From: Pseudomonas izuensis
GTDB lineage: Bacteria; Pseudomonadota; Gammaproteobacteria; Pseudomonadales; Pseudomonadaceae
Assembly: GCF_009861505.1 (NCBI RefSeq)
Contig: NZ_WTFT01000024.1
Span: 1 to 64,000 of the forward strand
Length of the DNA: 64,000 nt
Direction of reading: 5' to 3'
A model generated the notes under the pieces. The model saw nothing but the letters and a program-made list of their open reading frames with translations, did not search any database and had not been told where the DNA came from. This document shows positions 6,485 to 61,981 of the stretch, one piece after another. Position 1 is the first letter of the stretch; the number at the start of each line of letters is the position of its first letter. Both the position numbers and the translations under genes were made by a program.

Positions 6485-7453
6485 ATGTCACTGCCCGCTT
6501 TGCTTGAACAATGTTTACGTCTGCCCGTGGTGGCAGCGCCAATGTTCCTGATTTCCAATCCGCAACTGGTGCTTGCCTGCTGCCGAAATGGCGTGGTGGG
6601 CAGCTTTCCGGCGCTGAACCAGCGCGAGAGCAGCGGCTTCAAGGCATGGCTGGAAGAAATCGAAGCCGGACTGGCGACACTGGAGAATCCCGCGCCGTAC
6701 GCGGTCAACCTGATTGTCCACAAAAGCAATCCACGATTGCAGGCGGACCTGGAAATCTGCATCGAGCACAAAGTGCCGATCGTGATCACCAGCCTTGGCG
6801 CCGTGAAAGAAGTGGTCGATGCCGTCCACAGCTATGGCGGCCTGGTGTTTCATGACGTGACGACACGCCGCCATGCCGAGAAGGCCGCCGAAGCCGGTGT
6901 GGATGGTTTGATCGCGGTCGCTGCAGGTGCCGGCGGGCATGCCGGGACCTGGAGCCCATTCTCGCTAATCGCCGAGATCCGCCAATTCTTCGACAAGACG
7001 CTGCTGCTGGCCGGGTGCCTGAACCATGGTCACGAAATACTCGCAGCGCAACTGCTCGGTGCGGATCTGGCCTACTTCGGCACGCGATTTATCGGCACCA
7101 CCGAAAGTCACGCGCCTGAGGCCTACAAAGAGATGCTGCTGACATCCAGAGCGGCAGACATCATCCATACTCCTGCTGTATCGGGCGTACCGGCGAGCTT
7201 CATGCGCCAGAGCCTTGAGGCCGCCGGTTTCGATATGGCCGCACTGCAAAACAAGGGTGAAGTCAATTTCGGCTCGAAACTCAAGCCGTTGAGCGACGAA
7301 GCCAAAGCCTGGAAAACCGTTTGGTCCGCGGGCCAGGGTGTGGGTGAAATCGATGATTTGCCGAGCGTCGATCAACTGGTAGCACGCCTCGACGCCGAAT
7401 ACCGCAAGGCACTGGAACAGTCCGGGCAACTGCGGCAACGCTGGCCACGCTGA
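6485..7453 (+). CDS. nitronate monooxygenase family FMN protein
   Basis: Predicted FMN-dependent oxidase of nitronates such as propionate-3-nitronate, or a related 2-nitropropane dioxygenase. The 322-aa TIM-barrel sequence carries the flavin-phosphate-binding region VAAGAGGHAG (residues about 140-150) and the substrate-site sequence FGTRFIGTTES, as in the bacterial class. A GGGGG ribosome site lies just before ATG 6485. The physiological substrate cannot be told from sequence. Confidence 0.88.
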   Translation: MSLPALLEQCLRLPVVAAPMFLISNPQLVLACCRNGVVGSFPALNQRESSGFKAWLEEIEAGLATLENPAPYAVNLIVHKSNPRLQADLEICIEHKVPIVITSLGAVKEVVDAVHSYGGLVFHDVTTRRHAEKAAEAGVDGLIAVAAGAGGHAGTWSPFSLIAEIRQFFDKTLLLAGCLNHGHEILAAQLLGADLAYFGTRFIGTTESHAPEAYKEMLLTSRAADIIHTPAVSGVPASFMRQSLEAAGFDMAALQNKGEVNFGSKLKPLSDEAKAWKTVWSAGQGVGEIDDLPSVDQLVARLDAEYRKALEQSGQLRQRWPR

Positions 7454-57300: not shown

Positions 57301-58072
57301 GCGCAATGAGCTGCACCTCTACTATCAACCTAAAATCAGCCTCGACGACTATCGCCTGGTAGGGGCCGAAGCACTGATTCGCTGGCGCCACCCGACCTTT
57401 GGCGATGTGCCGCCGGAGCACTTCATTTCCCTGGCCGAAGAAAATGGCATGATCCTGCAAATCGGCGACTGGGTGCTCGAGACCGCCTGCCGGCAAATGC
57501 ACGAGTGGAACAAAACCTACATGGACCTTGGCCCGCTGTCGGTCAATCTCGCAGGCGCCCAGTTACGCCAGCCGAACCTGCTCAGCCGCATCGAGCAATT
57601 GCTCAAGGACTACCGCCTCAAACCCGGGTTCCTGCAACTGGAAATCACCGAAAACTTCATCATGAGCCAGGCGGAAGAAGCGCTGGCCGTGCTGCATCAA
57701 CTCAAGCAGCTGGGCGTGCAACTGGCAATCGACGACTTCGGTACGGGCTACTCGTCCTTGAGCTACCTCAAACGCCTGCCACTGGACATCCTCAAGATTG
57801 ACCAGTCGTTCGTTCGCGGTTTGCCGGACGATCCCCACGATGTCGCCATCGTGCGCGCCATCATCGCGCTCGGCCGCAGCATGCAATTCACCGTGATTGC
57901 CGAAGGCGTCGAAACCCAGGCACAGCAGCAATTCCTGGCCTATGAGGGTTGTGAGCAGATCCAGGGCTACATCGTCAGCCTGCCCCTGCCCCCCGACGAA
58001 TTCGCCGCGACGTTTCTTCGTACAGCCGTATTGGATTTTTCGGATAGCACAGCCGCGAAACCGTCGCTATAA
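54326..58072 (+). CDS. membrane diguanylate cyclase/phosphodiesterase with solute-binding and PAS domains
   Basis: A 1,248-aa cyclic-di-GMP protein. Order: signal peptide (about 1-22), class 3 solute-binding domain (about 25-250), one membrane segment (about 262-285), four PAS domains (about 310-800), GGDEF domain with intact ARLGGDEFIIL near residue 886, and EAL domain with intact EALIRW near 1013 plus DDFGTGYSSL. Both catalytic signatures are complete, so it could make or break c-di-GMP. The periplasmic domain suggests control by an amino acid-like ligand. ATG 54326 is chosen; the frame runs back into rpoD without a signal peptide. Its last codons overlap the -10 of the following tRNA promoter. 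Confidence 0.93.
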   Translation: MPRLPTVLFLLSLMTWTATAGALTLTDEERSWLAAHPDLRLGVDASWPPFEFRDDQGRYQGLAADYINLIRQRLAIKLTPIEPVSWTVVLEQARQGKLDLLPGIMSTPERQAYLSFTRPYLDFPIVILAHVGGPQPRKIEDLYGLKIAVVENYAPHELLRTHNPDLNLVAMPNVSSALQALATDEVDAVVGDLASSVWSLRQLKLDGLYVSGETPYRYQLAMGVPPNNKMLVSILDKVLADMTPAEISAIQEHWVGNVLDHRTFWSDLLVYGLPGLLLLVTVLATVIRINRRLSSEIARRIDLEQELRSSEYHYRGLVESLSAIAWEARMSDFTYSYVSPHAEDLLGYPLSHWLIPGFWRNIIHPADLTRAQNFCDHEVLAGRDHSLDYRVITADGRCLWVRDIVSLIEHGHEPVMRGLMIDISETKRTEEALRLSEQKFASVFQQCPDILVIARLSDGCLLEVNEAFEEQIGLRAEDVIGQTATDLNIWGVPGVGPGLLQRLQAGSIRNLEMPFRRSNGQVFTGLISAEPFDLDTTPALVVVVRDITQLKETQQQLQTSEEKFAKAFHASPDGLLLSRQSDGLLLEVNEGFSRITGFNSAMSVDRSALDLGIWVNLNERKQMLDLLHRDGFVRDFSCHIRRSDGQIRLCEVSSRPLPIGDEDCMLTIARDITERHLMQEKLQQAATVFESTAEGVLITDTQQHISAVNRAFTEITGYSESEALGHTPRLLASGLHDSAFYAAMWHQLTAEGHWQGEISNRRKNGELYPSWLTISAVRNRDKFITHFVAVFADISSLKHAQAKLDYQAHHDPLTGLPNRTLFESRLLTALNTQRENGGQGAVLFLDLDRFKHINDSLGHPVGDLLLKGIAVRLKEQLRDIDTVARLGGDEFIILLPGLQQPSDADNIATKLLNCFTAPFQAGEHEFFISSSIGTSLYPQDGCDVATLIKNADAAMYRSKAKGRNRVESYTCDLTAQASERVALEHELRRAIERNELHLYYQPKISLDDYRLVGAEALIRWRHPTFGDVPPEHFISLAEENGMILQIGDWVLETACRQMHEWNKTYMDLGPLSVNLAGAQLRQPNLLSRIEQLLKDYRLKPGFLQLEITENFIMSQAEEALAVLHQLKQLGVQLAIDDFGTGYSSLSYLKRLPLDILKIDQSFVRGLPDDPHDVAIVRAIIALGRSMQFTVIAEGVETQAQQQFLAYEGCEQIQGYIVSLPLPPDEFAATFLRTAVLDFSDSTAAKPSL

Positions 58073-58073
58073 T
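58068..58073 (+). promoter_or_regulatory. -10 of the split tRNA-Ile2 gene
   Basis: A perfect TATAAT 15 bases before the tRNA; a weak TAGCAC at 58045-58050 could be the -35 (17-base spacer). The element overlaps the stop codon of the GGDEF/EAL gene, so the tRNA promoter is partly coding. Confidence 0.6.
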
Positions 58074-58087
58074 CCGCGGCCTACTGA

Positions 58088-58144
58088 GGGCCTATAGCTC
58101 AGTTGGTTAGAGCAGAGGACTCATAATCCTTTGGTCCACGGTTC
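58088..58144 (+). pseudogene. 5' part of host tRNA-Ile2 (anticodon CAU), interrupted in the T-loop
   Basis: GGGCCTA acceptor strand, D-arm GCTC...GAGC, anticodon stem GAGGA/TCCTT around the loop CTCATAA (anticodon CAU, which needs lysidine to read AUA) and the start of the T-arm CACGGTTC. The expected rest of the gene is missing here; it lies 3.15 kb away at 61298-61322. The intact gene would be 77 nt with CCA. The loop alone could be elongator Met, but the CUCAUAA context and body fit Ile2. Confidence 0.85.
58140..58144 (+). repeat. left copy of the 5-bp junction repeat (attL side)
   Basis: GGTTC at the break in the T-arm; the same five bases occur at 61298-61302 at the other end of the insertion. 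Confidence 0.75.
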
Positions 58145-58171
58145 TTATGTAGGGTTCATCTACCCGCACAT

Positions 58172-58200
58172 TTGGACGATGACCAGTAATAGATTAAGCT
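58172..58200 (+). promoter_or_regulatory. possible promoter of the island tRNA
   Basis: TTGGAC (58172-58177), 17-base spacer, TAAGCT (58195-58200), about 20 bases before the tRNA. The -10 is poor; transcription from the host tRNA promoter at 58068 could also read through. Confidence 0.35.
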
Positions 58201-58219
58201 ACTGAAAGATAAAGACTTT

Positions 58220-58535
58220 GGGCCTCTAGCTCATGTTGGTTAGAGCAGCGGACTTAAGGTGAGAGACCTACACCCCCAAGGGGCATGGTTAATCGCAAAT
58301 GGGTTGCCTTGGGGTAAGTTCACTCTGTCCCTTGGTAGAATCGCTCAAATTCGGGGAAGCCTCTGCAAACGCGTGGTAATCCCGAGCCAAGCCTCTTAGG
58401 AGGAAGGTGTAGAGACTGTACGGGCGAGCCGAAAGGTAAGAGACAGTCCAGACCACGAACCCGAAAGGGGCGGTGAAAATCGAAGTGGTAAGCATAATCC
58501 GTTGGTGCCCGGTTCGACTCCGGGGAGGCCCACCA
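58220..58535 (+). tRNA. island tRNA-Ile(CAU)-type gene interrupted by a group I intron
   Basis: 5' exon 58220-58255 (or -58254) and 3' exon 58493-58535. The exons make a perfect 7-bp acceptor stem (GGGCCTC/GAGGCCC), D-stem GCTC/GAGC, anticodon stem GCGGA/TCCGT, and T-stem CCCGG/CCGGG with loop TTCGACT, then ACCA with CCA encoded. Joined after CT it gives the loop CTCATAA with anticodon CAU. The D-loop has one base more (ATGTTGGTTA) than the host copy. It differs from the host tRNA in acceptor, anticodon and T stems, so it is a foreign gene, not a duplication. Confidence 0.85.
58256..58492 (+). ncRNA. group I intron (IC3-like) in the tRNA anticodon loop
   Basis: About 237 nt. Conserved elements: P (58345-58361, containing CAAATTCGGGGAAGCC), Q (58378-58390, AATCCCGAGCCAA), R (58404-58424, AAGGTGTAGAGACT...) and S (58441-58453, AGACAGTCCAGACC). 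P4 can form from 58351-58355/58381-58385, P6 from CCTC-TTAG-GAGG, P3 from 58341-58345/58423-58427, a GAAA-capped P8 at 58428-58437, and P7 from GACTG 58414-58418 / CAGTC 58444-58448. The last intron base is the expected G (58492). No homing endonuclease frame lies inside. It closely resembles the cyanobacterial tRNA-Leu and Azoarcus tRNA-Ile introns. Confidence 0.93.
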
Positions 58536-58547
58536 TTTAAAAAGAAA

Positions 58548-58572
58548 CCGCATCCATGATGCGGTTTTTTTG
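58548..58572 (+). terminator. terminator of the island tRNA
   Basis: AACCGCAT-CCATG-ATGCGGTT-type stem followed by T7, 12 bases after the tRNA; the truncated nuclease gene ends just beyond it on the other strand. Confidence 0.85.
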
Positions 58573-58582
58573 TTCCCCGAAA

Positions 58583-59467
58583 TTACTCTTCTTCAGCCCT
58601 GACATCGCGGGTAGCAGCGATCCACTGCTCCACGCCGGCCGTCGAAGCCTCAATAGCTATAAGCCTATCAGTAATATGCCGCACCGCCTGCACTGCCGCT
58701 TCGGGCTTGGGCAAACCCGACCAGAACAATGCTTGGCCTACGATGCTTTCCCAACCATAAAAAAGGGTAAGGCCAATCCCAAGCCCGTGCGCCCAGTCGT
58801 CCAAACGTATTGTGTCCAACATGGGCTGCTGAGTTGAAAGCATGACAAGCGCTACCTCTCTCACCCCCATAGATACACATTTTTGCCCGAAGACCTGAAC
58901 ATCACTCGATGAAACAGGCTTGTCTCGAACCTCAAATGCTTTCTCCCATACCTCAGGCTGGGGTTCACTCCGAATACATACATCGCCCGGAGAGTCACGA
59001 CTCGGATCATTAATGCGACCACTCTCCACTCGTGCAGAACCGACCGCAGCATCCATAAGTCCCGCAACCGCTGCCTGCGCCCGACGACCGCTTTCGGAAT
59101 CGTCCTGAACGAAGGTAAAGATCACTGATGCTAGCGTCTCAGGCCTAACGCTGATGGCCCCTGATGAAGTGAGATATCTCGGCTGGTAGCCCCTACGCAC
59201 CGATATAAATGCTCGCAAGGCGGCCCTAGCTTGCTCCTCGCTATCCATTTGCTGGAGTTCGCCCACCAAATCGAGCATGTATGCAAACGCTACGGCACTC
59301 ATTGAATGAACGGGCGTCTGATCACCCAGGTGAGTCATCCTAAAGTAAGGTTGATTGTTCAAAGGCTCTCGGCCGGTCACACCGATGTGGAAACCCAGCT
59401 CTGCTGATAGCGGAACCAATACACCATGACACAAGGAGCGAGCGGAGTAAGCCCGGTCATTGCCCAC
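58583..59467 (-). pseudogene. N-terminally truncated SacI-family-like restriction endonuclease
   Basis: 294 codons from a GTG at 59467. The frame stays open upstream to about 59545, reading FIGTQILAKSVNRNVDLYAI and KPRHAVG, continuous in style with the annotated part, but there is no ATG and a TAA stops it. Nuclease-like features: GDVCIRS near the centre and FEVRDK about 15 residues later, a D...ExRxK arrangement like PD-(D/E)xK enzymes, plus GREPLNNQPYFRM. I recall such segments from the SacI family; a search is needed. No methyltransferase is nearby, which fits inactivation. Confidence 0.6.
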
Positions 59468-59481
59468 GGCATGCCTTGGCT

Positions 59482-59766
59482 TTATGGCATACAGATCGAC
59501 ATTTCGATTAACTGACTTAGCGAGAATTTGTGTACCGATGAACGCGATATACTTTTACCTCGTACATGGATCTCGATGATCCCAGGGGTCTGTATTCGGT
59601 GGCCATCAACAAACTTTCCAGCGGTCTCAGCATGAACGTGATGCCAGATCTCTCCCTCCAGCACTGACGGGTGGGTCACATGGGCATTCGCGATGAAGCC
59701 AGTAAAAGCCAAACCATCTGAATCAACCTTCAGCCTGGCAATAACATCGCAGATTCTGTCATTCAT
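59482..59766 (-). CDS. small mobile-element-type protein, C-terminus possibly replaced
   Basis: 94 aa. The part up to about EIEIHV resembles small accessory proteins of pseudomonad islands (pattern GKFVDGHRIQTPGI). The last 22 or so residues are read from DNA that in another frame encodes the upstream end of the nuclease, so the true C-terminus seems to have been lost at a deletion junction near 59545-59560. Function unknown. Confidence 0.55.
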   Translation of the reverse strand: MNDRICDVIARLKVDSDGLAFTGFIANAHVTHPSVLEGEIWHHVHAETAGKFVDGHRIQTPGIIEIHVRGKSISRSSVHKFSLSQLIEMSICMP

Positions 59767-59846
59767 TGTTTAGTCCTTATTGGATTCCCTACGTCTAGGA
59801 CGTCCCGTAGGCTTCACTGATGAAACCCGCAATCACACAGATAACT

Positions 59847-60290
59847 TCACCCATTACTAGCACCATTCTCGTATCTGGCTCGCCTATCCACAGAAGTCAG
59901 CAATTCGCCTGAATACAGTCGCCGAAATCCGATGCGATCACCTTCCCGCCAGCCTAGGGATTTGCAGACCTCAGGTTGCAGTTCCAGCACCCAATGGCCC
60001 TCGAATGTCCGGACTATGTATCCGACCCAAGTCGGTGAGGTCCGGTCATCAAGGGACCTGCGCATAACCGCTACGTCCTCTGGACTAGCAGTGGGACGGC
60101 ATTTGGCATTAATCGCGAAGTAACCAGCACGCGCGGCCTGCTTGGCTGGCCAAGACGAAGAAATATCTTCCAGATCGACACTTAGAGAGCGAGCACCTGT
60201 CAGCCGCACTCGTCCAGGTCGCAAGGCTTTAGCCCGGAAGTAGGCATCAAGACGGTTTCTAATTCGCAACCAAGCCCTGAGTGAAATCAT
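59847..60290 (-). CDS. unknown protein with AbrB/SpoVT-like C-terminal segment
   Basis: 147 aa from ATG 60290, which has a strong GGAAGG ribosome site; an in-frame start at 60383 is less likely. The C-terminal part (WVLELQPEVCKSLGWREGDRI) has the beta-hairpin pattern of AbrB/MazE-type DNA-binding folds, so it may be an antitoxin-like or regulatory protein. Basic N-terminal half. Divergent from the XRE gene across two palindromes. Confidence 0.6.
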   Translation of the reverse strand: MISLRAWLRIRNRLDAYFRAKALRPGRVRLTGARSLSVDLEDISSSWPAKQAARAGYFAINAKCRPTASPEDVAVMRRSLDDRTSPTWVGYIVRTFEGHWVLELQPEVCKSLGWREGDRIGFRRLYSGELLTSVDRRARYENGASNG

Positions 60291-60404
60291 GGTCACACCT
60301 TCCAATATTTTCGCCTGTTGAATCTTGTCGATGTTGATGGGGCAAATTGATGCTGGTTGTTCAGCTGGGTGCTGCTCGGTCAATCTACAGAGCTTTCACA
60401 CAGC

Positions 60405-60435
60405 AAGATATATCTTAGTATCAACTATCGTTGAT
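60405..60435. promoter_or_regulatory. paired palindromic operators between the divergent island genes
   Basis: A perfect 12-bp palindrome AAGATATATCTT (60405-60416) and, four bases on, ATCAAC-TATC-GTTGAT (60420-60435). They sit between the AbrB-like gene and the XRE regulator gene, where a controller protein would bind. Confidence 0.55.
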
Positions 60436-60480
60436 TCCAATCTACCTGCATGATCCGTCTAATGCCAACTGTTTTCTTTA

Positions 60481-60774
60481 ATGGGCAGTGGCATGAGCTT
60501 CGAGACAGCGCTGGGAGCAGTGCTCAAAGATTTGCGGATACGGCGAGGATGGACGCAAGCGCAATTTCACGGCGTAGTGTCAGCTCAGTACCTCAGCGAT
60601 CTCGAATTTGGTAAACGTGCTCCATCGCTTGTGATTCTGCGTGCGATCTGCGATCACCTCGGTGTTGAGCTAGCTACGGTGCTTATTTTGGCGGGTGCCA
60701 GGGATGAGCCTGTGGTAGATCCCGATGATCTCCTGAGGCGCGTAGAGCGTGAATTAGCAGCACTTAAATATTAA
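60481..60774 (+). CDS. XRE-family helix-turn-helix regulator
   Basis: 97 aa (or 93 from ATG 60493). The HTH spans LGAVLKDLRIRRGWTQAQFH to YLSDLEFGKRAPSLVILRAI, as in phage Cro/CI-like and restriction-modification controller proteins, and an acidic tail follows. It probably controls itself and the divergent gene through the adjacent palindromes. Confidence 0.85.
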   Translation: MGSGMSFETALGAVLKDLRIRRGWTQAQFHGVVSAQYLSDLEFGKRAPSLVILRAICDHLGVELATVLILAGARDEPVVDPDDLLRRVERELAALKY

Positions 60775-60864
60775 AGAATTAAGCAGCCATTCAACCCCGG
60801 ATGAAGTGCTGCCAGGCTTGCTGTCGCTAAGGCATCCAATATTTGTCAATCAGTGGATTTCAAA

Positions 60865-61167
60865 ATGAGCGACTTAGAAGACGAGATGCGCCGAGCATTT
60901 TTCGGTGCAGGTGAACCTCAATTGCCAGTAGACGCATGTACACCTGTTTTGCCGGACAAAGCACTGACACGTAAGCCAGCTAAGGCCGTGTCTCCGAAAC
61001 TTCGAGTAACGTTGAATGTGACGAAGGTTTTTGAGGGAGAGATCGATGTGCTCATCCATGACGCGAACACATTGAGTACCTTGACCGCAGAGCTGGAAGC
61101 AAAGGCTAAAGCGAAAAAACTGAAATATAAGTACATCGACGTAGTTTCGATCAAATCAATTGAGTAA
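60865..61167 (+). CDS. unknown small island protein
   Basis: 100 aa from ATG 60865 (GTG 60853 is an alternative). An acidic N-terminal part is joined by a basic linker to a beta-rich segment (LRVTLNVTKVFEGEIDVLI) and a lysine-rich helix. No family recognised. It follows the XRE gene after a 90-base gap and ends 130 bases before the right end of the island. Confidence 0.6.
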   Translation: MSDLEDEMRRAFFGAGEPQLPVDACTPVLPDKALTRKPAKAVSPKLRVTLNVTKVFEGEIDVLIHDANTLSTLTAELEAKAKAKKLKYKYIDVVSIKSIE

Positions 61168-61297
61168 CGATCAGGCTGATGGGCGCTTGGGTAAATACAC
61201 CCACAAATGTGCGGCTAAGCGCAAATTTATCGACGAATATAACAGTCTGATATGTAAAGAATTTACCTTAGAGAGTATGAGTTTTGCCCTACATTAG

Positions 61298-61322
61298 GGT
61301 TCAAGTCCGTGTGGGCCCACCA
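61298..61322 (+). pseudogene. 3' part of host tRNA-Ile2, including attR-side GGTTC
   Basis: GGTTC (61298-61302) followed by AAGTCCGTGTGGGCCCACCA. The TGGGCCC matches the acceptor strand of the 5' fragment at 58088 and CCGTG pairs with its CACGG, so the two fragments were one gene. Together they give a normal T-loop TTCAAGT. Confidence 0.85.
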
Positions 61323-61328
61323 AACAAG

Positions 61329-61351
61329 AAAGCCGCGCATTGCGCGGCTTT
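61329..61351 (+). terminator. terminator of the original host tRNA-Ile2
   Basis: AAAGCCGCGCA (61329-61339) pairs with TGCGCGGCTTT (61341-61351) and is followed by T-rich sequence. Confidence 0.9.
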
Positions 61352-61636
61352 TTCGTGTCTGGCGTTTGGTTTTGTTTACTTCAGGTGTCGCAATATCGGA
61401 TGACGCCGTAGGGCCTTGTAGGCAAACTCCGAATCTTGCTTTTGGGCACTTTGCCGCCTTGTTGCGCTTTTCTTCGACGGGATAGTCTCCGGACGTCGCT
61501 GCCACATGCAGCGGTCGGGCTTGGAAACCCGATGAAATTGGACGCAATGCTTGCCCATCAAGTTATGGCGGCTGTGCGTGGGACGTCTTAGGGCGTGCCG
61601 GTTTCCTAATTTCCCGGTTTTCCAACCTGCGCACAG
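61352..61636. other. gap after the tRNA remnant
   Basis: About 285 bases. Two short minus-strand frames (61263-61547 and 61376-61561) are open, but they have no ribosome site and run across the tRNA remnant or into unstructured sequence, so I do not call a gene. Confidence 0.5.
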
Positions 61637-61637
61637 C

Positions 61638-61671
61638 TGTCACCCATTCGCTTGGAAACGAATGTGACAGC
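61638..61671 (+). promoter_or_regulatory. hairpin in the leader of the DUF3077-type gene
   Basis: GCTGTCACCCATTCG pairs with CGAATGTGACAGC (two-base bulge; loop CTTGGAAA), ending 23 bases before the ATG, just before the AGGAG ribosome site. It could be a leader attenuator or an operator. Confidence 0.5.
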
Positions 61672-61693
61672 ATTCCAAATTAGGAGCTGTACC

Positions 61694-61981
61694 ATGACTA
61701 AAACAAATACGTCCGAACCCTCAGAGTTAAAAACCGTAGGCTTCACCCCTTTCCTGTATCTCTCTGACCAGCCCTTGTTCCACGTATGCCGAGACGTCCC
61801 TATTGCCGACGCCCTGGTCCAAGCCTCCGACCTGCTGTTCCTCGCCAAATCCCTCACCGTGGATGCCGCCTACGCCCAAGACTCCGACCGCCATGCCTGG
61901 GCCGCGCACTATCTGACGACGATGAGCAAAGCAGTGATCGATGATGTGGTGAAGGTGCTGACGCGACGGCCAATCGGTTAA
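61694..61981 (+). CDS. DUF3077/DUF6124-type small protein
   Basis: 95 aa with the lineage-typical PFLYLSDQPLFHVCRDVPIADALVQASDLL pattern spread over residues 19-48. Function unknown; such genes are frequent and multi-copy in Pseudomonas. ATG 61694 is chosen because TAGGAG precedes it; the frame open to 61652 crosses the hairpin. Confidence 0.75.
   Translation: MTKTNTSEPSELKTVGFTPFLYLSDQPLFHVCRDVPIADALVQASDLLFLAKSLTVDAAYAQDSDRHAWAAHYLTTMSKAVIDDVVKVLTRRPIG

Follow-up and report, generated by a model that had tools for sequence, protein, structure and literature searches.

In the mobile elements termed SEs, the target keeps its core sequence at attL, attR receives the core brought along from the donor site, and recombination between attL and attR yields no empty site (PMC10214605). 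The isoleucine tRNA tRNA-Ile2, which reads AUA codons by means of lysidine, has been reported to carry group I introns in Acidovorax and Burkholderia (PMC8450103), and a table from 2014 places such tRNA introns in cyanobacteria, alphaproteobacteria, and betaproteobacteria (PMC4033280). A 64,000-nt stretch of Pseudomonas izuensis DNA (assembly GCF_009861505.1, contig NZ_WTFT01000024.1, positions 1 to 64,000 of the forward strand; hereafter the window) bears on both subjects, as it contains a 3.15-kb island inserted into the host tRNA-Ile2(CAU) gene and equipped with a CAU tRNA of its own. The reading developed here, to which a probability of roughly 0.8 is assigned, is that an SE/Tn554-like island breaks tRNA-Ile2 irreversibly and carries a foreign replacement CAU tRNA. 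Integrating elements are said to rebuild the tRNA genes that they enter and thus to spare them; in the present family, a tRNA gene that is single-copy and presumably essential has been destroyed again and again, and a foreign one is supplied in its stead.

A severed tRNA-Ile2 gene and the tRNA inside the insertion

The first-pass annotation of this DNA had described the host tRNA-Ile2 as split at the T-loop sequence GGTTC into two parts 3,153 bp apart, and the sequence bears this out: the T-loop is cut directly after GGTTC (58144), and the 5' part (58088-58144) and the 3' part (61298-61322) both hold these letters. Rather than a plain repeat, however, the shared letters are more plausibly five bases of a 6-bp core for recombination, which reads CGGTTC on the left and GGGTTC on the right. 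When joined, the flanks form a 77-nt tRNA-Ile2 that is one base off the intact gene of genome G188 and one base off that of G200, and a terminator-like host hairpin (inverted repeat, 61324-61356) stands right behind the severed 3' part. On the window itself ARAGORN called no tRNAs, and the 57-nt stump was the sole tRNA match of Rfam at gathering level. The same left junction was found in 15 genomes of three genera, and in all 15 an unrestored host stump is followed by the island end and by a CAU tRNA that lies 62-75 bp inside, on the strand of the host tRNA. The source genome of the window (G000) is a draft of 92 contigs, which would leave room for a misassembly or contig artefact, but such an artefact is excluded for practical purposes because the junction recurs in 14 other genomes, some of which are one-contig assemblies (G168, G207, and G032).

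An ordinary tRNA-targeting integrase island, which would have restored a working host tRNA and would carry the additional tRNA as incidental cargo, is very improbable. T-loops of tRNAs are common integrase targets, integration is stated in a review to reconstitute the tRNA (PMC8371274), and the stump is still scored as a tRNA by Rfam (34 bits). In agreement with the earlier claim that the host gene is not restored, however, none of the 15 left junctions supplies a T-arm or an acceptor 3' strand, the stump together with the island end lacks a cloverleaf fold (z -0.15), and a CAU tRNA in 15 of 15 islands would not be expected of cargo. The stump was also considered as a T-armless tRNA on account of its 34-bit match and was rejected, as it forms no cloverleaf and owes its additional acceptor pairing to the end of the window island.

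The tRNA supplied by the insertion is visible as repeats of the host tRNA and occupies 58220-58535, where it is interrupted by a 238-nt group I intron; after removal of 58255-58492 it becomes a complete, divergent tRNA-Ile2(CAU), the specificity, judged by sequence, being that which the first-pass annotation had given it. In intronless homologues from three other Gammaproteobacteria (G675, G403, and G525), exon 1 runs without a gap into exon 2. Among the 15 islands, nine carry intron-bearing tRNAs (introns of 236-246 nt) and six carry an unrelated intronless tRNA. The intron-bearing form has the CAU anticodon, a full cloverleaf, C4-G69, C5-G68, and A73. C4-G69 and C5-G68 are determinants of the essential enzyme TilS in E. 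coli; lysidine modification and isoleucine charging of the island tRNA would be expected. The intronless form likewise has CAU and full length, but A4-U69 and C73 when set against the E. coli determinants.

The source genome comprises 6.87 Mb in its 92 contigs and is 100% complete, the window being the first 64 kb of one contig. RF00005 gave 57 matches in it (150 of 153 candidates scored), and its CAU tRNAs besides the stump are four genes, all tRNA-Met by ARAGORN, which we take to be three of initiator type and one of elongator type. A pattern for elongator-type CAU tRNAs matched five times, at the elongator Met gene, the stump, and three other places, two of which hold no tRNA by ARAGORN and the third no RF00005 match. 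No other tRNA-Ile2, and so no second intact host copy of the kind that would speak against replacement, was found in G000 by RF00005, ARAGORN, or the CAU pattern, though a copy in a gap of the draft assembly is conceivable. Across ten island genomes the same pattern detected the Met gene and the stump every time and, in five of them, also the intronless island tRNA. None of the ten gave evidence of another elongator-type CAU tRNA; leftover matches, examined singly in G000 only, were about as many as in a reversed control. AUA is in use, as ATA makes up 53 of 759 Ile codons in 34 mechanically called open reading frames (ORFs) of at least 250 aa, and a cell that has received the island probably relies on it to read this one codon.

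Recurrence of the islands and conservation of their tRNAs

Searching 398 genomes of the genus with the island DNA gave matches at 1e-10 in 12, and besides G000 the full intron-bearing tRNA was found in G033, G094, G168, and G192, in each case at the same broken base. A tRNA-Ile2 census matched in 393 of the 398, and together with its follow-up it added G004, G032, G207, G367, and G052 as broken. The follow-up comprised 84 hand-picked genomes whose best match was weaker than about 1e-29; many of these looked broken (E about 2e-23), and five were already known to be so. A pattern search matched in 12 of the remaining 79, where G004, G207, and G367 proved to be broken by islands and the other nine were rejected as intact variants or stray 3' halves. 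Ten of the 67 pattern-negative genomes were searched with the tRNA, which revealed a full-length intact variant in eight, a broken gene in G032, and no clear tRNA-Ile2 in G066; G052, also pattern-negative, later proved broken. The remaining 56 were taken as intact from the score of an intact 90% variant (104 bits over positions 1-77, five examined), and because they were counted in this manner the figure of 10 broken genes in 398 genomes is a lower bound.

An exact pattern for the left end yielded seven matches and no control matches in 398 genomes of the family, and all seven sit at a broken tRNA-Ile2 with a CAU tRNA inside. They comprise G052 and G168 again and the new genomes G1025, G1062, G1030, G927, and G778, with G927 and G778 belonging to other genera; the window's own left end differs by a base and escapes this pattern. 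Recent transfer is indicated by G004 and G032, as their TnpA proteins are identical and the T-stems of their hosts' tRNA-Ile2 differ. Separately, seven loci (L133, L136, L138, L141, L143, L144, and L145) hold stray tRNA-Ile2 3' halves that start near the anticodon and are probably att remnants of other integrases.

Both kinds of island tRNA are conserved. The six intronless tRNAs are identical over 77 of 77 nt, and the tnpB DNA of five intronless islands has 71.8-72.1% identity between two subgroups; in seven intron islands, mean identity is 98.7% for exons and 84.6% for introns. Intronless islands form one clade in the TnpB tree (100/99) and, less firmly, in the TnpA tree (77/92), so that a single tRNA swap suffices and the double origin for which these trees were a test is unneeded. 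With a midpoint root, which serves the drawing and nothing else, the intron form would be the older one. Since six of the 15 islands use an intronless tRNA, the intron is no part of the strategy as such.

It is unlikely that the island tRNA is instead a selfish or defensive gene, such as one that resists an anticodon nuclease or is the vehicle of a self-spreading intron, with the break in the host gene exposing it to selection and complementation being secondary. Restriction or defence-like cargo (the endonuclease of the window and an LmuB-like protein in G033) and the similarity of tRNAs in phage genomes to the intronless island tRNA lend this explanation some weight, but two unrelated tRNAs, one of them intronless, occupy the same place, and the anticodon loop of both is the ordinary CUCAUAA. 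A different history is suggested by G188, in which a mutated relic of the 3' part of the intron tRNA (L075, about 6687-6720) lies away from the intact host tRNA-Ile2: the foreign tRNA-Ile2 could have arrived first by horizontal transfer and made the host copy dispensable, with islands striking later by chance. This order of events is hardly probable, as the replacement is found inside the gene-breaking insertion in 15 of 15 cases; because its distance from the end is near-constant at 62-75 bp, one event can do both the breaking and the replacing. The relic seems to be a copy that decays where it is not needed.

The intron displays the features of a group I intron, namely core helices with compensatory change, a U.G pair at the 5' splice site, and a terminal G. 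An invariant GGUU is able to pair with GACU, giving the U.G pair. Covariation was assessed in eight sequences, one of which (G404) comes from another family of the order. Two-sided changes occur in 18 of 52 proposed pairs, compared with a mean of 6.2 for shuffled sets (0 of 500 as high) and 1 to 4 for slid versions. The pairs are formed in 95.9% of cells, a value that leans towards one sequence because the structure was drawn on it, and the U.G, P4, and P7 pairs are uninformative by covariation because they never vary. One variable helix has two-sided changes in seven of ten pairs and is paired in only 82% of cells. The intron would be expected to self-splice.

Intron-bearing tRNA-Ile2-like genes interrupted at the same place of the anticodon loop also occur in three other Gammaproteobacteria (G404, G429, and G443; loci L109, L110, and L116). 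The 150 bp 5' of these genes hold no island-end motif in two cases and, in G429, one that has a mismatch. The genes apparently lie outside such islands, and the intron-bearing island tRNA was probably taken from a gene of this kind. The window intron further matches 1268 of 72,556 plasmids (1263 at 60-80% identity and five at 90-95%), and among the plasmid matches listed the intron core is covered at about 71% identity. In pCTX-M3 (NC_004464.2), the match (L131, 2501-2678) falls in an unannotated stretch near aac(3)-IId without a tRNA by ARAGORN.

Ends, recombinases, and cargo of the islands

Six islands were seen with both ends, measuring about 31 kb (G094), 28.6 kb (G033), 12.2 kb (G192), 9.0 kb (G1062), 8.8 kb (G168), and 3.15 kb (window). 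All six have inverted ends, TTATGTGGT...ACCACATAA in general and TTATGTAGGG...CCCTACATTA in the window version, with a 6-bp core between each end and the host tRNA part. The left core belongs to the host and reads CGGTTC, or AGGTTC where the host T-stem ends so (G032 and G052). Of the six right cores, five do not match the left one (GAGTTC, AGGTTC, AGGTTC, GGGTTC, and GGGTTC), and G192 has CGGTTC at both sides. The right cores may record earlier hosts; in other Pseudomonas, intact tRNA-Ile2 variants have AGGTTC as their core.

Complete islands encode TnpA (about 471-480 aa, PF00589), the large TnpB of about 1076-1083 aa, and the small TnpC of about 222 aa. In the five complete islands with ORFs listed, these are followed by a 157-188-aa ORF and a 721-aa ORF in G094, G207, G367, and G032, and G033 is without them; the 721-aa protein of G094, scanned in part, is RecD2-like below the cut-off. 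TnpA is a tyrosine recombinase (PF00589, E 2.8e-15) with R253, H373, R376, H408, and Y417 invariant in five of five sequences, and in TnpB R553, H716, R719, Y750, and Y751 are invariant in five of five. Scanning genome contigs for TnpB with two short peptide patterns identified two loci, in Pseudomonas avellanae BPIC 631 and Pseudomonas sp. CFBP13508, and no new genome; no TnpB relatives were found in plasmids or phages, and no tnpB elsewhere in G000 in a search that had no positive control.

All three tnp genes are present in nine of the 15 islands, those of G004 and G1025 running into contig ends. In G168 an IS3-like insertion cuts tnpA and tnpB is missing, the window and G192 islands have none of the three genes, and G778 has no recombinase gene in its first 19.8 kb, its right end lying outside the stretch. 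These four islands (G000, G168, G192, and G778), which lack full recombinase genes in the stretch seen, keep their tRNA exons with a fully paired acceptor stem, as host dependence predicts.

The cargo of the window island is given in Table 1 with the other features. No methyltransferase was found among the five window island proteins scanned with Pfam, PHROGs, and PADLOC. Sequence like the end of the SacI-like endonuclease gene also lies behind the tRNA in G033, which indicates that the window and G033 islands share ancestry beyond the tRNA. The G033 island (L092, 8342-11422) encodes a 1026-aa protein with PADLOC LmuB matches (E 3e-33), so that a defence system may be among the cargo of one full island or more. 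DNA of the 104-aa ORF (window 60980-61155) recurs at 70-75% identity elsewhere in the source genome (G000:C56:63520-63689) and in G307, G395, and G186. Beside the island, at window 61482-61647, lies a C4 antisense RNA (RF01695, 83.5 bits) that precedes a 109-aa ORF (61652-61981) and has a c4-a1b1 target-like stretch just 5' of it, at 44.6 bits against a gathering value of 46.7.

Table 1. Positions in the window of the island, its parts, and the host tRNA-Ile2 gene it severs
Feature	Position	Strand	Basis
TATAAT box, putative, of the host tRNA-Ile2 promoter	58068-58073	+	assigned by position
Stump, first 57 nt of host tRNA-Ile2	58088-58144	+	same stump or variants in 15/15 genomes
Left 6-bp core CGGTTC (attL), host sequence	58139-58144	.	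sequence position
Island left end, TTATGTAGGG (TTATGTGG in 14 other genomes)	58145-58154	+	inverted repeat
Island proper, 3,152 bp between both cores	58145-61296	.	repeat and end comparison
Exon 1, island tRNA-Ile2(CAU)	58220-58254	+	contiguous with exon 2 in intronless homologues; identical in 9/9 intron islands
238-nt group I intron separating U33 from C34	58255-58492	+	RF00028 27.4 bits, below gathering; two-sided changes in 18/52 pairs, 8 sequences
Exon 2, island tRNA-Ile2(CAU), CCA encoded	58493-58535	+	comparison with intronless homologues
Terminator-like hairpin and T run behind island tRNA	58541-58571	+	inverted repeat; + strand reading by eye, terminator scan called - strand only
SacI-like restriction endonuclease, C-terminal part, 294 aa, frame-broken gene	58583-59467	-	PF09566 E 2.9e-21; PADLOC REase_II E 2.1e-23
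94-aa ORF, probably front part of the broken endonuclease gene	59482-59766	-	position, frames; no family match
178-aa ORF	59847-60383	-	no Pfam or PADLOC match; one weak PHROG match E 0.0073
97-aa helix-turn-helix regulator, possibly restriction-modification control protein	60481-60774	+	PF13560 E 8.4e-11
104-aa ORF	60853-61167	+	no family match
Island right end, CCCTACATTA on + strand	61287-61296	-	inverted repeat
Right 6-bp core GGGTTC (attR), first base unlike left core	61297-61302	.	end comparison
Cut-off last 20 nt of host tRNA-Ile2	61303-61322	+	joins stump to full tRNA

A proposed mode of action and its place among known elements

The window island would belong, in degenerate form, to a family of site-specific islands whose movement involves a tnpA-tnpB-tnpC recombinase set of the SE, GInt, or Tn554 kind. 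The target is the T-loop of tRNA-Ile2 with the core NGGTTC, where insertion severs the last 20 nt and restores nothing, and the element brings a complete foreign CAU tRNA inside its left end, on the strand of the host tRNA and at the distance given above. The host tRNA promoter would then read through the 57-nt stump into the island tRNA. As SE-like chemistry would never regenerate the target, insertion into a single-copy tRNA gene would be tolerated only through the replacement carried, and in the window island the recombinases have been lost and the tRNA is retained. A TATAAT box stands 5' of the stump in 14 of the 15 island genomes and TATACT in G778. A sigma-70 scan of 57900-58700 called no promoter, the host's own included, and a terminator scan of the + strand from the stump to the island tRNA made no call except 58219-58233, which starts one base before the island tRNA and is within the tRNA.

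The addiction-like strategy proposed in the first-pass annotation, under which loss of the island without exact repair would be lethal, fits these observations, though "obligatory complementation module" describes the evidence better; it is equally well supported to say that a non-regenerating element could not persist in a tRNA-Ile2 gene without a substitute. A broader proposal, held with somewhat more belief than doubt, is that the islands form a distinct SE/Tn554-like family whose defining module is a promoterless replacement tRNA. Such islands would carry out an irreversible swap of the host's sole AUA-reading tRNA under a captured host promoter, their recombinases would then be dispensable and the tRNA would not, and foreign tRNAs, some bearing group I introns, would thereby spread between genera and assume an essential role in decoding.

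Several points weigh against this account. C73 and A4-U69 of the intronless island tRNA are unlike the known TilS and IleRS determinants, and ARAGORN names this tRNA Met. In G927 the island tRNA lacks one base between T-stem and acceptor, yet it can form seven acceptor pairs. The RF00028 match of the window intron, over core positions 50-157 of 253, scores 27.4 bits (E 3.4e-4), below the gathering value of 50. Folding energy, which says little by itself, does not set the precursor apart from its shuffles (z -1.16; 10 of 100 shuffles were as low). TnpB is weakly placed as a recombinase: its match to GmtZ (E 2.2e-4) is far below the cut-off, a TnpB-TnpA profile comparison was not significant (probability 1.5%), and it has no PDB match and no Pfam match. 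A promoter inside the 62-75 bp before the island tRNA is possible. Lastly, the difference in right cores could be drift of the dead half of the tRNA, against which it may be set that the 20 bases behind the right core have only one variable A/G site among the six islands.

If the account is true, the islands would show cleanly how in nature a mobile element can make itself indispensable, and they would be a means for tRNA genes, along with the group I introns inside them, to pass from lineage to lineage. They would also test directly whether essential genes are open to recombinase elements of the copy-out type. The account would further explain genomes that annotation would report without a tRNA-Ile2.

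With SEs the islands share imperfect inverted ends, a 6-bp spacer, the target core at attL with a different core at attR, a set of one ordinary recombinase, one large and, in the islands, putative recombinase, and a small protein, and site specificity, with no mobilisation genes recognised (PMC10214605). They differ in that the SE core comprises intA, tfp, intB, and srap, whereas the tRNA islands have three genes in the block, and neither "tRNA" nor "intron" occurs in the text of the SE paper, which thus describes neither a tRNA as target nor a tRNA as replacement (PMC10214605). The six both-end islands all keep the split target at both ends, together with inverted ends and the 6-bp spacer, which are SE traits. 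Tn554 has radC as its target, unlike the islands. It resembles them in its tnpA-tnpB-tnpC order, its ordinary, large, and small sizes, and a 6-bp core carried on the right, the genes being compared by order alone (PMC10214605). GInts are likewise large Pseudomonas cargo islands with several recombinases (PMC5385486), and some are said to give no empty site (PMC10214605); they have ginABCD where the tRNA islands have three genes, a separation drawn from gene description only, and the words "tRNA" and "intron" are absent from the text (PMC5385486). For the gamma-mobile-trio (NCBIfam models; reference in PMC12715929), TnpA matches GmtY at 41.6 bits and TnpB matches GmtZ at 19.4 bits. Both scores are far below the cut-offs of 340 and 600, and the islands are not members.

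In Azoarcus the tRNA intron follows CAU. The tRNA-Ile(CAU) introns of the betaproteobacteria Azoarcus, Acidovorax, and Burkholderia are likewise small group I introns in the anticodon loop (PMC6274277; PMC8450103; PMC4033280), with CAU as the 5' triplet in the Azoarcus case (PMC6274277), whereas the island intron lies between U33 and C34 and on a mobile island. Tycheposons, as portrayed in PMC10872708, are cargo elements with a tyrosine recombinase that are bordered by a tRNA, there tRNA-Met(CAT). A literature search that covered few subscription papers found no description of an element that breaks tRNA-Ile2 and carries a replacement. The breaking and replacing of a tRNA gene thus appears to be undescribed, while the machinery behind it would work like that of SE or Tn554 elements.

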